Positions 4,708-52,531 of a stretch of 64,000 nucleotides of DNA are shown here, in pieces (the first letter of the stretch is position 1; every line of letters begins with the position of its first letter). Under the pieces are notes generated by a model. That model ran no database searches. It saw nothing but the letters and a program-made list of their open reading frames with translations, and had not been told where the DNA came from. The translations under genes and the position numbers were made by a program. The stretch covers positions 88,513-152,512 of the forward strand of contig JACMOZ010000038.1 in NCBI GenBank assembly GCA_014377785.1, in the 5' to 3' direction. Origin of the DNA: Aeromicrobium sp. Its GTDB lineage: Bacteria > Actinomycetota > Actinomycetes > Propionibacteriales > Nocardioidaceae.

Positions 4708-5235
4708 ATGAGCCTCGATCGCCCCGTGTCCCCCGATCCCTACGACCTGCTTCCGGCCGTTGACTCGTTCGCTGTGACCAGCGAGGACGTTGTCGATGGT
4801 CAGCCGGTCAAGCACGAACAAGTCAACGAGTTCGGCGACACCTCGCCGCAATTATCGTGGTCAGGCGCACCCGAAGGCACCAAGAGTTTTGTCATCACGT
4901 GCTTTGACCCCGACGCTCCCATCGTCTCCGGCTTCTGGCACTGGGTGCTGGTCGATGTGCCCGCCGACGTGACATCGCTGGCGGTCGGTGCGGGCAGAGT
5001 AGGTGGCGAACTTCCCGGCAACGCCTTCCACGTACGCAATGACGGCGGCGGACTCGGCTACATGGGCTGCGCACCGCCGGCCAACGACCAGGTGCACCGC
5101 TATTTTTACGTCGTGCACGCCGTCGGAGCAGAGTCGTTGGGCGTCGATGCGGCCGCGAGCCCGGCCGTCGTCGGTTTCAACCTGGCCTTCAAGACACTGG
5201 GCCGCGCCATCATCCGCGGTACCTACCAACACTGA
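4708..5235 (+). CDS. YbhB/YbcL-family PEBP protein
   Basis: Phosphatidylethanolamine-binding / Raf-kinase-inhibitor-like family, 175 aa, cytoplasmic (no signal peptide seen). Family marks are TSPQLSWSGAPEGTKSF (residues about 46-62), the ligand-pocket motif DPDAP with the following FWHWVLVDVPA, and VHRYFYVVHAV near residue 130 (the second conserved segment). Bacterial members have no agreed function. The ATG at 4708 is set by TAGCCT 6 nt upstream. It converges on the SPFH gene, with a palindromic element between the two stop codons. Confidence 0.9.
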   Translation: MSLDRPVSPDPYDLLPAVDSFAVTSEDVVDGQPVKHEQVNEFGDTSPQLSWSGAPEGTKSFVITCFDPDAPIVSGFWHWVLVDVPADVTSLAVGAGRVGGELPGNAFHVRNDGGGLGYMGCAPPANDQVHRYFYVVHAVGAESLGVDAAASPAVVGFNLAFKTLGRAIIRGTYQH

Positions 5236-5257
5236 CCCGGCGCCCGCGCCGACATAC

Positions 5258-5321
5258 CCGAGATTTGTGCGCTGACGGCCGTTTCAGCAAGGAATATTGG
5301 CCGTATGAGCACAAATCTGGG
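5258..5321. repeat. 64-bp palindromic element, copy 1
   Basis: Arms at 5261-5280 and 5299-5318 match in 17 of 20 positions (AGATTTGTGCGCTGACGGCC against the complement of the right arm), with an 18-nt loop. It lies between the convergent PEBP and SPFH stop codons. A second, better-conserved copy is at 21385-21448. Confidence 0.8.
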
Positions 5322-5328
5322 GGCTGGG

Positions 5329-6420
5329 TCAGTTCGCGGGCGGCTCGTCGGGCTCCGGCAACCTGGGAGCCGAGCCACCAACGGCGGTCGATGCATCCTT
5401 GGCCGCTTCCAGTGCGGCTTCGACGGCCTTCTGGGTCGCCGACTCATCGGGTGCATCGTCGACGACCGGCGCATCCATCTCGACGCGCTTCTTGCTGCCG
5501 CCGCCATCGAGTGGGATCTTGCCGATAGTTCCGCCGATGCTTTCCATGGCCTTCGTCAGCTCGGCCGGAATGATCCACATGGTGCTGCCTTCGCCCTCGG
5601 CGATACGGGGCAGCATCTGGAGGTACTGGTAGGCCAACAACTTCTGGTCCGGGTTGCCTTCGTGGATGGCCTGGAACACGGTCAGGATGGCTTGTCCCTC
5701 ACCCTGGGCACGCAGGATCGCGGCCTGGCGGTCGGCCTGCGCACGGAGGATCGCAGCCTGACGCTCACCCTCGGCGGTCAGGATCGACGACTGCTTCTGG
5801 CCTTCGGCCCGCAGGATCGACGACTGGCGTTCACCTTCGGCGGTCAGGATGACTGCACGCTTGTCACGGTCGGCCCGCATCTGCTTTTCCATCGCGTCCT
5901 TGATGGACGGCGGCGGGTCGATGCCCTTGAGCTCGACACGGTTGACGCGAATGCCCCATTTGCCGGTCGCACCATCGAGTTCGCCGCGGAGAGCATTGTT
6001 GATCTGGTCTCGGCTCGTCAGCGCGTGCTCAAGGGTCATACCGCCGATGATGTTGCGGAGCGTGGTCATCGTGAGTTGTTCGATGGCCTGGATGTAGTTG
6101 GCGATCTCGTAAGTTGCTGCGACCGGGTCGGTCACCTGGAAATAGATGACAGTATCGATCGAGACGACCAGGTTGTCCTCGGTAATGACCGGCTGAGGCG
6201 GGAACGACACCACCTGTTCGCGCAGATCGATCATGTAGCGGACTTTGTCCACAAATGGCATCACGATGTTCAGGCCCGCCGGCAGCGTTGCACGGTATTT
6301 GCCAAATCGTTCGACGATCCCGGTGCGTGCCTGCGGCACGATCTTGACCGTCATGCTGATGACCACGATCGCGAGAAGCGCGAGCAGGACCAAAAACACA
6401 GTTAGCGCGGATGCAATCAT
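5329..6420 (-). CDS. SPFH/band-7 membrane protein (stomatin/paraslipin type)
   Basis: A 363-aa protein with one N-terminal membrane helix (TVFLVLLALLAIVVISMTV), then an SPFH domain starting IVPQARTGIVERFGKY, with ALTSRDQINNALRGELD near its end. Residues about 180-240 carry five 11-residue repeats of the type ILTAEGERQSS, a predicted right-handed coiled coil used for oligomerisation in this family. The tail is acidic and proline-rich. SPFH proteins scaffold membrane microdomains and often work with NfeD partners. The ATG overlaps the nfeD stop (ATGA), so the two are translationally coupled. Confidence 0.9.
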   Translation of the reverse strand: MIASALTVFLVLLALLAIVVISMTVKIVPQARTGIVERFGKYRATLPAGLNIVMPFVDKVRYMIDLREQVVSFPPQPVITEDNLVVSIDTVIYFQVTDPVAATYEIANYIQAIEQLTMTTLRNIIGGMTLEHALTSRDQINNALRGELDGATGKWGIRVNRVELKGIDPPPSIKDAMEKQMRADRDKRAVILTAEGERQSSILRAEGQKQSSILTAEGERQAAILRAQADRQAAILRAQGEGQAILTVFQAIHEGNPDQKLLAYQYLQMLPRIAEGEGSTMWIIPAELTKAMESIGGTIGKIPLDGGGSKKRVEMDAPVVDDAPDESATQKAVEAALEAAKDASTAVGGSAPRLPEPDEPPAN

Positions 6421-19200: not shown

Positions 19201-20636
19201 CCGACTGCGCCTTCCATTTGAAGTTCGATAAGACGGTTGAGCTCGAGGGCGTACTCCATCGGGAGTTCGCGCGCGATGGGCTCGACGAACCCACGGACGA
19301 TCATCGCCATCGCTTCGTCTTCTTCCATACCCCGGCTCATGAAGTAGAACAACTGGTCATCGCTGAGCTTGGACACCGTGGCCTCATGGCCGAGCGTGAC
19401 ATCGTCTTCACGTACGTCGACATACGGGTAGGTGTCTGAGCGGCTGATCTGGTCGACAAGGAGCGCATCGCACTTGACAGTGCTCTTGGAGCCCTTGGCG
19501 CCTTCGAGCACCTGCAGCAGTCCGCGGTAGGACGAACGTCCGCCGCCGCGGGCCACCGACTTGCTCAGGATCGAGCTCGACGTGTTGGGGGCGGCATGCA
19601 CCATCTTGGCGCCGGCGTCCTGGTGCTGTCCTTCACCCGAGAAAGCAACCGACAGCGTCTCGCCACGAGCGTGTTCGCCCATCAGGTAGACGGCGGGGTA
19701 CTTCATAGTGACCTTGGAGCCGATATTGCCGTCGACCCATTCCATCGTCGCGCCTTCTTCACAGACGGCGCGCTTGGTGACGAGGTTGTAGACGTTGTTC
19801 GACCAGTTCTGGATCGTCGTGTAGCGGCAACGGCCGCCCTTTTTGACGATGATCTCGACGACGGCGGAGTGCAATGAGTCCGAGGAGTAGATCGGCGCGG
19901 TGCAGCCTTCGACGTAATGCACGTAGGCGCCTTCATCGACGATGATCAGCGTGCGCTCGAACTGGCCCATGTTCTCGGTATTGATCCGGAAGTAGGCCTG
20001 CAATGGGATGTCGACGTGGACACCCTTGGGCACGTAAATGAACGAGCCGCCGGACCATACGGCCGAGTTGAGCGCGGAGAACTTGTTGTCGCCGATCGGG
20101 ATGATCGTCGCGAAGTATTCGCGGAACAATTCGGGCTGTTCCTTGAGCGCCGTATCTGTGTCGAGGAAGAGTACGCCTTGTTCTTCGAGGTCTTTGCGGA
20201 TCGAGTGATAGACGACTTCGGATTCATACTGAGCAGCGACGCCAGAGACGAGGCGCTGCTTCTCGGCTTCGGGGATGCCCAGGCGATCGTAGGTGTTCTT
20301 GATGTCTGCGGGCAGGTCATCCCAGGTGGCGGCCTGCTTTTCGGTCGAGCGCACGAAATATTTGATGTTGTCGAAGTGGATGCCGCTGAGGTCCGCACCC
20401 CAATTGGGCATCGGCTTGCGGCCGAAGAGTTTGAGGCCCTTCAGACGCATATCGAGCATCCATTCGGGTTCGCTCTTGAGTGCCGAGATGTTGCGTACGA
20501 CGTCTTCGGAAAGACCGCGCTTCGCGTTGGCTCCGGACGTGTCGTTGTCGGACCAGCCGAAGTCATAGTGGCCGAGGTCCTTGAGTTGTGGGTTTGCCTG
20601 CTCAACCTTGTTTGGCGCACTCGTGGTCGAAGTCAT
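19197..20636 (-). CDS. sufB: SufB scaffold subunit
   Basis: Main Fe-S scaffold of the SUF system, 479 aa. Family landmarks: an N-terminal [52 protein letters not shown] with the conserved Cys, [17 protein letters not shown] and the C-terminal [19 protein letters not shown]. The track start at 20684 lies inside sufR; the ATG at 20636 has GAGAGGG upstream and overlaps the sufR stop by 4 bp. Confidence 0.96.
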
Positions 20637-21319
20637 GTGTTGGCCCTCTCTTCTGCGGAAAAATGCGGGATGTTGGTCGTGCACACGCCATCGCCGTGGG
20701 CGATGGTGGCAAGTCGCTGGACGTGGCTGCCGAGCAGTCGCGAGAACATTTCGGCCTCGGCTTCACACAATTGGGGGAATTCCTCGGCCACATGGGCAAC
20801 CGGGCAGTGGTGCTGGCAGACCTGCGAGCCGCTGGGCGCATTTTTGGCCGAGGCGGCATAACCGTCCTGGCTCAGGGCTTCGGCGAGGATCCCGGCGTGG
20901 TGTTCGGGCGCGGCGGCCTGGATCAGTGGGCGTATGCGGGCCTCGAGTTCGACGACCCGTTGGCGGGCGAAGGCCTGCACGGCCGCGTCTCCCCCGGTGC
21001 TCTGCAGATATCGCAGCGCGTCGGTGGCCAGATCGTCATAAGCCTGATCGAAATGATCGCGACCGGCGTCGGTCACGACAAAGACCTTGGCCGGTCGGCC
21101 GCGTCCCCGTGCACCGTTGATGCGCTGGTCACGCGCTTCGATAACGCCATCGGCAAGTAGGACGTCGAGATGCCGGCGCACCGCGGCCGGGGTTAGCCGG
21201 AGTCTCTGGGCAAGGTCGACCGCCGTGGACGGGCCCTCAGTCATGATCGAATTGGCGACTCGTTCACGGGTAGGCGCGTCGTCAACAGACGACGCCTGCT
21301 CGACCCGGATGTTTTTCAC
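20633..21319 (-). CDS. sufR: SufR transcriptional repressor
   Basis: Fe-S-sensing regulator that heads actinobacterial SUF operons. The 228-aa protein has an N-terminal winged helix-turn-helix ([20 protein letters not shown], then [16 protein letters not shown]) and a C-terminal cluster site with Cys168, Cys172 (CQHHC), Cys185 and Cys213. The GTG start lies inside a candidate operator and has no ribosome site, so it may be leaderless. First gene of the operon; 4-bp overlap with sufB. Autoregulation is expected from the family and not proven here. Confidence 0.93.
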
Positions 21320-21368: not shown

Positions 21369-21384
21369 AGTAGTGCCGCTCGCC

Positions 21385-21448
21385 CCCAGATTTGTGCGCA
21401 TACGGCCACAATCTTGGAAAAAAATCGCCGTCTGCGCACAAATCTGGG
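21385..21448. repeat. 64-bp palindromic element, copy 2
   Basis: Arms 21385-21406 and 21427-21448 match in 21 of 22 positions (consensus CCCAGATTTGTGCGCATACG, then GC), separated by 20 nt. It lies between the divergent sufR and primase-polymerase genes. Copy 1 is at 5258-5321. Confidence 0.85.
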
Positions 21449-21452
21449 CCGT

Positions 21453-21465: not shown

Positions 21466-22518
21466 ATGGCATCTGAGGCAGTTGAGATCGACGCGGGCGG
21501 GCGCTCCGTTCGAGTGTCCAGCCCCTCACGGGTGATCTTCCCCGCGACGGAACGGACCACCGAGATCACCAAACTCGAGGTGGCGCAATTTTATGTCGAC
21601 GTCGAAGACGGTCTTATGCGCGCGCTCCGCAATCGGCCGACGACCCTGGAACGCTGGCCAAAGGGCGTCCTCGCGGGTATGAAACTCTCGACCGCCGGCA
21701 GCACCGGTGATGCGTTTTATCAAAAACGGGTACCCCGCGGCGCGCCCCCGTACCTCGAGACGGCCCGCATCACGTTCCCTTCCGGTCGCGAAGCCGACGA
21801 GGTATGTCCTACCGAGATTGCCTCTGCCGCCTGGGCTGCGCACATGGGCACAATTACTTTTCATCCCTGGCCGGTGCGCCGCGACCGGCCCGACCATCCC
21901 GACGAATTACGGATCGACCTCGACCCGCAGCCCGGGACCGATTTCCACGACGCCGTTCGTGTCGCCGGCGACCTCCATAGTTTGCTCGACGAAATCGGCA
22001 TCACGGCATACCCGAAGACGAGTGGAAACCGAGGCGTCCATGTATTCATACGCATCGAACCGCGCTGGACGTTCGTGGACGTGCGGCACGCCGCCATTGC
22101 ACTCGGGCGCGAACTGGCGCGGCGTTCGAACGGCGTGACGATGAATTGGTGGAAAGAAGAGCGCGGTGCCAACATTTTTGTCGACTTCAACCAGAATTGC
22201 CGCGATCGAACGATGGCCAGCGCTTATAGCCTGCGCTCGATCGCGGGAGCGCCCGTTTCCACGCCGGTGACTTGGGACGAATTGACCGACGTCAAGGATC
22301 CTCGCGACTTCAACCTGCATACCGTACCTTCGCGCCTGGCCAAAATTGGCGATCCGCACGCCACGATCGATGACGTGGAGCATTCGCTCGACACGCTGCT
22401 CGAGTGGTGGGAGCGAGATCTCAGTAACGGTCTCGGCGAAATGCCGTTCCCGCCCGACTACCCAAAAATGCCCGGCGAGCCAAAACGAGTCCAGCCCAGC
22501 AAGGCCAAGTCCCCGTAA
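21466..22518 (+). CDS. LigD-type primase-polymerase domain protein (PrimPol)
   Basis: Stand-alone archaeo-eukaryotic-primase-type polymerase related to the LigD polymerase domain, 350 aa. Visible family marks: TTLERWPKGV, FYQKRVPRGAPPYL, then DELRIDLDPQPGTDFHD with the two metal-binding Asp (DLD), KTSGNRGVHVFI, and LARRSNGVTMNWWKEERG. Mycobacterial homologues (PrimPol-C / LigD2-like) work with LigC in gap-filling excision repair. It converges on such a ligase here. The track start at 21373 runs through the palindromic element; the ATG at 21466 has TAGAGT 7 nt upstream. Confidence 0.9.
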   Translation: MASEAVEIDAGGRSVRVSSPSRVIFPATERTTEITKLEVAQFYVDVEDGLMRALRNRPTTLERWPKGVLAGMKLSTAGSTGDAFYQKRVPRGAPPYLETARITFPSGREADEVCPTEIASAAWAAHMGTITFHPWPVRRDRPDHPDELRIDLDPQPGTDFHDAVRVAGDLHSLLDEIGITAYPKTSGNRGVHVFIRIEPRWTFVDVRHAAIALGRELARRSNGVTMNWWKEERGANIFVDFNQNCRDRTMASAYSLRSIAGAPVSTPVTWDELTDVKDPRDFNLHTVPSRLAKIGDPHATIDDVEHSLDTLLEWWERDLSNGLGEMPFPPDYPKMPGEPKRVQPSKAKSP

Positions 22519-22563
22519 CGTCATAAAAAACGTGGCTTCTGGGCCGCCGCTTTTATGACGTTA
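22516..22563. terminator. bidirectional terminator-like inverted repeat
   Basis: TAACGTCATAAAA (22516-22528) and TTTTATGACGTTA (22551-22563) are perfect complements, with A/T runs facing a GC-rich centre. Each outer end is the TAA stop of one convergent gene (PrimPol and LigC-like). Confidence 0.7.
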
Positions 22564-23649
22564 TGAGGTGAGGACGTCCTTGAGGTCGTATTTGACGATC
22601 TCTTCAAGTTGGCCGTATCCGCAGGATTCGGGTTCGCGATCGGGGCGCCAGCGTTTGAATTGCGCCGTATGACGAAAACGCGTGCCCTCCATGTGTTCGT
22701 AGCCGACTTCGGCGACCCGTGTCGGTGCGAGGGGTACGAACGTCAAATCCTTGCCCGAACTCCATCGGGTCGTCGCGCCGGGCAGCCGGTCGTCAGCATG
22801 AGCGTCGGCGTCTTGCCAGCGGGCCCAGGGATGTTCGAAAAGATCCACCCGGAGTTCTGCAAGTTCGTCGATCAACTCGGCGCGCCGCGCATCCGTGAAC
22901 GAGGCGGCGACCCCCACATGCTGCAAACCGCCTTGTTCGTCATAAAGGCCGAGAAGCATCGATCCGAGCAGCGGCCGCTCTTCGCTCGAGGCCTTGTGAA
23001 GGCGATAACCGGCGACGACAACATCGGCTGTCCGGGCGTGCTTGATCTTGAGCATGGTGCGTCCGTTGGGGGCATACGGTTTGCCAAGAGGTTTGGCGAC
23101 GACTCCGTCGAGGCCGGCTCCTTCGAATTGTTCGAACCATTTCGCCGCCTTCGCGGGGTCCGTCGTCGTCCTGGTGACATGGATCGGCGGCTCCACCCCG
23201 GCGAGAGCCAACTCGAGTTGGCCGCGGCGTGCGGAAAACGGTTCGTCCATCAACGACTTGTCGCCGAGGGCCAACATGTCGAAAGCCACGAAGGAGGCCG
23301 GCGCCTCCGTTGCAAGAAGATTCACCCGTGACGCCGCTGGGTGGATCCGATCTGACAACCGATCGAATTCGAGTCGATCGCCGATCGCGATGAAGATCTC
23401 GCCGTCGAGGACACAACGCTGCGGCAACTGTGCCTTGAGCGCCTCAACCAGCTCGGGGAAATAGCGATTGAGTTCCTTGGTGGACCGGCTGGCGAGGACG
23501 ATCTCGTCGCCGTCGCGGAACACCAGGCAACGGAAACCATCCCATTTGGGCTCATAAGACAAGCCGCCGTCGAACTTCTGCGGGTCGGGAATCCCCTTGA
23601 CCGACTTCGCCAACATTGGCTTGACCGGCGGCATCACCGGGAGCTGCAT
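22561..23649 (-). CDS. ligC: ATP-dependent DNA ligase, LigC-like
   Basis: Nucleotidyltransferase plus OB-fold ligase, 362 aa, without primase or nuclease domains. Motif I is EPKWDGFR (AMP-accepting Lys), then VLASRSTKELNRYFPE (motif Ia/II), VLDGEIFIA (III), FVAFDMLALG (IIIa), GLDGVVAKPLGKPY (IV) and MLKIKHARTADVVV (V). This compact form matches LigC of mycobacteria, which acts with a PrimPol partner. No Ku gene is in the window. GAGG precedes the ATG; the TAA is in the shared terminator. Confidence 0.92.
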   Translation of the reverse strand: MQLPVMPPVKPMLAKSVKGIPDPQKFDGGLSYEPKWDGFRCLVFRDGDEIVLASRSTKELNRYFPELVEALKAQLPQRCVLDGEIFIAIGDRLEFDRLSDRIHPAASRVNLLATEAPASFVAFDMLALGDKSLMDEPFSARRGQLELALAGVEPPIHVTRTTTDPAKAAKWFEQFEGAGLDGVVAKPLGKPYAPNGRTMLKIKHARTADVVVAGYRLHKASSEERPLLGSMLLGLYDEQGGLQHVGVAASFTDARRAELIDELAELRVDLFEHPWARWQDADAHADDRLPGATTRWSSGKDLTFVPLAPTRVAEVGYEHMEGTRFRHTAQFKRWRPDREPESCGYGQLEEIVKYDLKDVLTS

Positions 23650-26887: not shown

Positions 26888-26905
26888 GACGCACGACCCG
26901 AGGCG

Positions 26906-26987
26906 GCGGTGACATAGGCACCACGGGATCGCCTCTGGTAGTGCCTAACCCACCGGCCCTGCAGGACGGTAGTGCCTAACTCACCGC
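26906..26987. repeat. three-copy GCGGTGA/TCACCGC repeat element
   Basis: Copy A, GCGGTGACATAGGCACCAC (26906-26924), is inverted relative to copy B, GGTAGTGCCTAACCCACCG (26937-26955), and copy C, GGTAGTGCCTAACTCACCGC (26968-26987). A and C form near-perfect terminal inverted repeats; B is a direct repeat of C. The element fills the gap between the GNAT gene and ctaB. Confidence 0.75.
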
Positions 26988-27004
26988 CGAACGGGGGAGG
27001 GCTC

Positions 27005-52404: not shown

Positions 52405-52531
52405 TGGCCCATTGTTTCAGCCCTCGGCCTGCGGCACGAATCGGGTCGTGCGTCGGCGACTCCGGGGCGAAGGATCTTGAGGGCTTTGGGTTGCCGAGCC
52501 TACCTAAAACCCTCAATATGCGCCGGAACGG

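Follow-up and report, generated by a model that had tools for sequence, protein, structure and literature searches.

Intergenic palindromes in Nocardioidaceae genomes form one part of a two-part arrangement, in which a nuclease cassette is accompanied by dispersed palindromes that are matched to it genome by genome and turn over between species. The DNA analyzed here (the window) is a 64,000-nucleotide stretch from an Aeromicrobium sp., and its palindromes are probably non-autonomous miniature elements that are spread or homogenized by a cognate DUF559 nuclease. We infer that the nuclease recognizes and cuts its own palindrome, and that this drives copying and homogenization.

One solo palindrome of what will be called the 72-bp family occupies positions 21381-21452 (covariance-model match of 73.8 bits, E 8e-20), with arms at 21383-21406 and 21427-21450 around a variable 20-nt center (21407-21426), and a second occupies positions 5254-5325 (68.5 bits, E 4e-18). 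The original prediction had described a near-perfect palindrome at 21385-21448, whose arms (21385-21406 and 21427-21448) are indeed separated by a 20-nt center and differ at only one of their 22 positions (21 of 22 matching), and a copy at 5258-5321, the arms of which are indeed identical to those of the first at 17 of 20 positions. Both copies are present, but the proposed length of 64 bp was too short for a family whose copies measure ~68-72 bp, and the family extends beyond these two copies, being found at ~12 places in the 5.0-Mb, 519-contig Nocardioidaceae genome. When the window was searched with the 20-nt arm at up to three mismatches, there were exactly four arm matches and none were expected (100 shuffles), which rules out a chance origin of the window palindromes. 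The two palindromes have folding z-scores of -7.7 and -6.2 relative to shuffled sequence.

The neighbors of the two copies are as they had been described. The first (21383-21450) lies between divergent starts, that of a winged-helix regulator gene at 21319 (20633-21319, minus strand; Pfam HTH_24/HTH_5) and that of a LigD-type primase-polymerase gene at 21466 (21466-22518, plus strand; Pfam LigD_Prim-Pol, E 9.5e-84). The second (5256-5323) lies between convergent stops, just 3' of the end at 5235 of a phosphatidylethanolamine-binding protein (PEBP) family gene (4708-5235, plus strand; Pfam PBP, E 3.8e-35) and just before the end at 5329 of an SPFH/Band 7 family gene (5329-6420, minus strand; Pfam Band_7, E 5.7e-42). 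The palindromes form strong hairpins on either strand and one copy is between convergent genes, as might be expected of bidirectional transcription terminators or RNA structures. This reading is nevertheless very improbable: nothing in the window matches Rfam at the gathering threshold, no U-tract or T-run lies beside the arms, the primary sequence of the arms is conserved across copies far beyond pairing, the other copy is between divergent starts, and the palindromes are paired with a nuclease gene (see below). Elsewhere in the window, an 18/24 palindrome between convergent gene ends at 22512-22567 (CCCGTAACGTCATAAAAA...TTTTATGACGTTATGAG) is likely to be either a terminator or one copy of a further palindrome family, and another 18/24 palindrome lies near a gene boundary at 52468-52525.

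A genome search for the 72-bp family recovered 10 exact-arm copies, an eleventh copy and one degenerate copy, and all except the degenerate copy have one constant length. In the exact-arm search, which permitted gap variation of 30 bp, the distance from GATTTGTGC to GCACAAATC was a constant 56 bp in 10 of 10 copies. The family consensus has the ends CCCCGAGATTTG...CAAATCTCGGGG and reads CCCCGAGATTTGTGCGC-NN-ACGGC-(20 nt, often TTTT..AAAA)-GCCGT-NN-GCGCACAAATCTCGGGG. Half-sites at one mismatch or less are located inside palindromes in 22 of 23 cases (21 in full copies and one in the degenerate copy), the remaining one being a chance coding match, and this argues that the unit is the palindrome rather than the half-site. 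Half-site sequence is strongly conserved and the arms vary independently; arm covariation was looked for in this family and none was detected. The original suggestion of a small dispersed repeat family (REP/MITE-like) is borne out by these copies, which are intergenic wherever this was checked, and by the presence/absence differences between species seen for equivalent families. The covariance model also matched an 83-bp family (GATTTGGCC...) at 11 places, as well as single members of other families. A solo palindrome of yet another family (GGCGGTGACATAGGCACCAC...GTGCCTAACTCACCGCC; GGTGGTGCCTAACTCACCG type) was detected in the window by a palindrome scan at 26904-26989, flanked by a GNAT gene and a UbiA gene; the nuclease cassette of that family is locus L119 on contig C423.

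Comparison of the open reading frames around palindromes yielded one recurrent neighbor, found at six loci and always adjoining a palindrome. On contig C258, palindromes of the window's 72-bp family bound both sides of a ~310-aa DUF559-type nuclease ORF. The ORF has a same-family palindrome on either side at L057 (on C258) and L065, both in this genome, and at L103, and its stop codon falls inside one of the pair. The cassette is ~1.1 kb long and consists of a palindrome, ~0.1 kb of DNA, the ORF of ~310 aa, and a second palindrome that overlaps or abuts the stop codon. L119 and L324 are among the cassettes with compound ends, in which three or more half-palindromes follow one another, such as GGTGGTG...CACCGG repeats or three GGGCCCAGATAATCCGCC units.

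The C-terminus of the cassette protein is a DUF559/MTES_1575 domain, a Vsr-like PD-(D/E)XK nuclease, and PF04480 scores above its cut-off in five of six proteins. An active-site-like D-x(8-14)-E-x-D-G-x-x-H is present in most close homologs; by pattern, D..E-x-DG-x-x-H is found in 47 of 72 homologs, mainly the close ones. The nuclease also has a weak profile match (E 0.22) to PDB 3r3p, a 'mobile intron protein'. The N-terminus is an AbiEi-like winged helix, ~150 residues of which match AbiEi profiles (up to E 1.8e-16), and no AbiEii partner gene was noticed in the cassettes. A single-sequence structure model of the protein had a pLDDT of 35. The identity of this partner gene bears on the possibility that the palindromes are canonical REP/REPIN sequences mobilized by a RAYT (Y1 HUH) transposase, or MITEs of an insertion sequence. 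They are of the same style, being short, dispersed, palindromic and intergenic, but such an assignment is scarcely credible. The original prediction noted correctly that no transposase is near in the window, and genome-wide there is also no match to Y1_Tnp (PF01797) and no RAYT, in a search that was positive in 5 of 14 control genomes. Furthermore, what the cassettes carry is a DUF559 gene, not a transposase, and the arms have no GTAG/CGTC-type foot.

The pairing of nuclease gene and palindromes recurs throughout the family. The window's genome contains 10 DUF559-type homologs, most of them flanked by a different palindrome pair of their own, and homologs are present in 120 of 121 Nocardioidaceae genomes, usually several per genome. 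Matching palindromes were found by script both upstream and downstream at 32 of 39 Nocardioidaceae loci, compared with 0 of 620 pseudo-gene placements within the window; a match was defined as a similarity of at least 19, and the maximum in the 620 placements was 17. At two further loci, L116 and L123, both cassette ends were recognized by covariance model or by eye. No recognizable palindromes were found at the DUF559 homologs L121 and L148. The sequence of the palindrome differs locus by locus, each nuclease locus having its own. Covariance-model matches occur in 14 of the 121 genomes, each with its own arm sequence, and the genomes that best match the model of the window palindrome belong to the same family, the Nocardioidaceae. 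An exact arm-pair scan of the genome collection returned mostly unrelated bacteria, and only an Aeromicrobium match was clearly of the same kind. Aeromicrobium sp. Leaf350 encodes such a nuclease protein at about 697196-698086 of NZ_CAKASL010000001.1. The prediction had considered that the repeat might be a chance or local duplication, with only two copies and arms not conserved in relatives; the copies number about a dozen, and although the arm sequence is indeed genome-specific, the palindrome-nuclease arrangement is conserved.

Outside the Nocardioidaceae, matched palindromes were found at 10 of 29 loci of distant homologs in a phylum-wide sample (a count that leaves out an eleventh script-counted locus, where the palindrome had matched itself), and about two thirds of the loci lacked recognizable palindromes. 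Cassettes outside the family include WP_170181047.1 of Tsukamurella tyrosinosolvens, whose CATCTTTCGAAGCGTTCTG palindromes match at 20 places, counting both strands, in 8 records that all come from that strain, and WP_054009319.1 of Arthrobacter sp. ERGS1:01. A 72-nt stem-loop family, Myt-1, has been reported from M. tuberculosis (PMC2267715) and is a candidate for pairing with a DUF559 gene. Two Acidimicrobiales MAG loci (L020 and L021) have possibly related palindromes with AGATTTGTGC arms, and L021 has a further GAGATTTGTGCAGAAA half-site close by. In an unbiased scan of 1.6 Mb of genome G113 (53% of that genome), four of five DUF559 genes had palindromes that recur elsewhere in the scanned DNA. 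Strong palindromes numbered 62 in the 1.6 Mb, and the 400-kb block that was compared gave 4, versus 0 in a Markov control. Two of the G113 families, FAM2 (GATGATGCATTCGGGTAGC, 16 members) and FAM5 (CGGTGAGCCAGCAACC, 10 members), are without a DUF559 partner in the scanned 53%; the partner may be in the rest of the genome or may be another gene. No relatives were found in viral contigs and phage records, and three plasmid records match this genome's nuclease protein, arguing that the nuclease is not typical horizontally carried cargo.

Solo palindromes tend to match the cassette of the genome in which they reside. For 37 of 62 solos the best cassette match is in their own genome, compared to a mean of 13.4 and a maximum of 22 in label shuffles, in a test that leans to the window's genome, where most of the own cassettes were compared (usually one for other genomes). 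All of the solos in the window's genome (23 of 23) best match a cassette from that genome. The three in the window illustrate the specificity of the match: the palindromes at 21381-21452 and 5254-5325 both have the L116/C258 cassette as their best match (score 34 vs 21 for the best cassette of another genome, and 42 vs 17, respectively), and the palindrome at 26904-26989 best matches the L119/C423 cassette (45 vs 11). Most misses involve either a pair of sister species or a genome for which the comparison did not include the cognate cassette.

Six species of one genus share an orthologous intergenic site: in five of them it holds palindrome, gene and palindrome, and in the sixth (G085) a lone palindrome, for which recombination between the flanking pair, with loss of the gene, is the simplest explanation. 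The five orthologs of the nuclease gene at this shared site have a dN/dS of 0.23-0.37, which indicates purifying selection. The solo sites of G085 are empty in some relatives and occupied in others, and one relative (G020) has an apparent internally deleted remnant at a G085 solo site. Palindromes at orthologous sites exist in species-specific versions. In this genus, covariation between the inner arms of a copy was also detected. The junctions are too diverged for a target-site duplication or insertion point to be read, and the comparisons revealed no excision or transposition event.

These data bear on the main rival explanation, according to which the AbiEi-like domain acts as a transcription factor on palindromic operators, located upstream of its own gene and at other genes, and the nuclease domain is incidental. 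AbiEi domains bind inverted repeats, and the winged-helix domain alone could account for binding without mobility. The AbiEi-like N-terminus of the protein would fit such a regulon, as would the strongly conserved half-sites and independently varying arms of the window's family and the location of one window copy next to divergent starts. However, a regulon does not account for the second palindrome of the cassette, at the stop codon of the gene, for the 5254-5325 copy between convergent stops, or for the gain, loss and concerted change of type that solo sites undergo between species; the nuclease motif is also kept in most close homologs. A regulon is therefore considered unlikely.

Under the preferred explanation, the two-part system of nuclease and miniature elements, the ~1.1-kb cassette would be the autonomous or master part. 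The AbiEi-like winged helix would read the inverted half-sites. The protein would bind its own palindrome, which may be extruded into a hairpin on the lagging strand or else be bound in duplex form by a protein dimer, and would then cut or nick it. Repair or copying of the break from another copy could occasionally seed new intergenic sites with solo palindromes, and could convert existing palindromes to the current type; in this way, it is proposed, each genome's palindromes stay matched to its own nuclease. Where the two palindromes of a cassette recombine, the gene could be lost and only one palindrome would stay behind. A more limited version invokes homing-type gene conversion only, with the nuclease cutting existing palindromes and homogenizing them or re-inserting the cassette in solo sites, and new sites arising by ordinary duplication. 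The species-specific versions at orthologous sites, the alternation of cassette and solo at one site, and the weak profile match to 3r3p, a mobile-intron (homing) nuclease, are all compatible with this version, but it is improbable that conversion is the whole story, because the ~12-20 dispersed copies with unrelated flanks and the several empty sites in relatives suggest that new sites are seeded.

To our knowledge, REPIN-RAYT is the main example of palindromic replicators that persist through an enzyme inherited vertically. If the proposal is true, there would be a second such system, built on an unrelated nuclease, as an independent replicate of it, and several questions would become comparative: why the enzyme stays single-copy, how the match between repeats and enzyme is maintained, and whether the host benefits. 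The large and unstudied DUF559-type gene family of actinobacteria would gain a testable role, and a class of unannotated intergenic palindromes would be explained by pairing with DUF559. The titles, abstracts and term counts of open-access papers that mention DUF559 gave no link to dispersed palindromes.

The pairing of palindromes with DUF559 has the look of a counterpart to the REP/RAYT system, and one that seems not to have been reported. In the 'REPtrons' of that system, a vertically kept enzyme gene is flanked by palindromes, many genome-specific solos are matched to the local enzyme, and several pairs can coexist in a genome (PMC3116915, PMC6006769). The same architecture is found here, in that palindromes flank a dedicated enzyme gene (32 of 39 loci vs 0 of 620 controls), dispersed solo copies are genome-specific and matched to the local enzyme, and genomes contain several distinct enzyme/palindrome pairs. 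Membership nonetheless fails: there is no Y1 HUH transposase, and the unrelated enzyme joins an AbiEi winged helix to DUF559 (Vsr-like PD-(D/E)XK). The palindromes are single quasi-palindromes of 60-85 bp, their arm consensus (CCCCGAGATTTGTGCGC..ACGGC) is without a GTAG/CGTC foot, and copies number ~10-20 here rather than hundreds. The Vsr-like (EDxHD) homing endonucleases such as 3r3p belong to the same nuclease superfamily, judging by the weak profile match, and homing-like gene conversion is possible in both; unlike them, the cassette is outside any intron or intein, and has a winged-helix domain and flanking palindromes with dispersed solos. Type IV toxin-antitoxin AbiEi antitoxins share the N-terminal ~150 residues, but the protein here has a nuclease C-terminus and its cassettes no noticed AbiEii partner. 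By analogy, the non-autonomous, end-only copies resemble MITEs and solo LTRs, and the reduction of a cassette-sized locus to one end resembles the formation of solo LTRs, whereas the ends here are themselves palindromic, no target-site duplication was seen in the diverged junctions, and there is no transposase or integrase. Set against IS elements and MITEs, the cassettes have flanking palindromes, with a nuclease in place of the transposase. The chances appear about even that DUF559 PD-(D/E)XK cassettes are a separate, phylum-wide class of mobile element, which arose independently of REPIN-RAYT and both replicates and homogenizes the palindromes at its flanks, these being miniature replicators resident in the genome; several distinct enzyme/palindrome pairs would then coexist in each genome.
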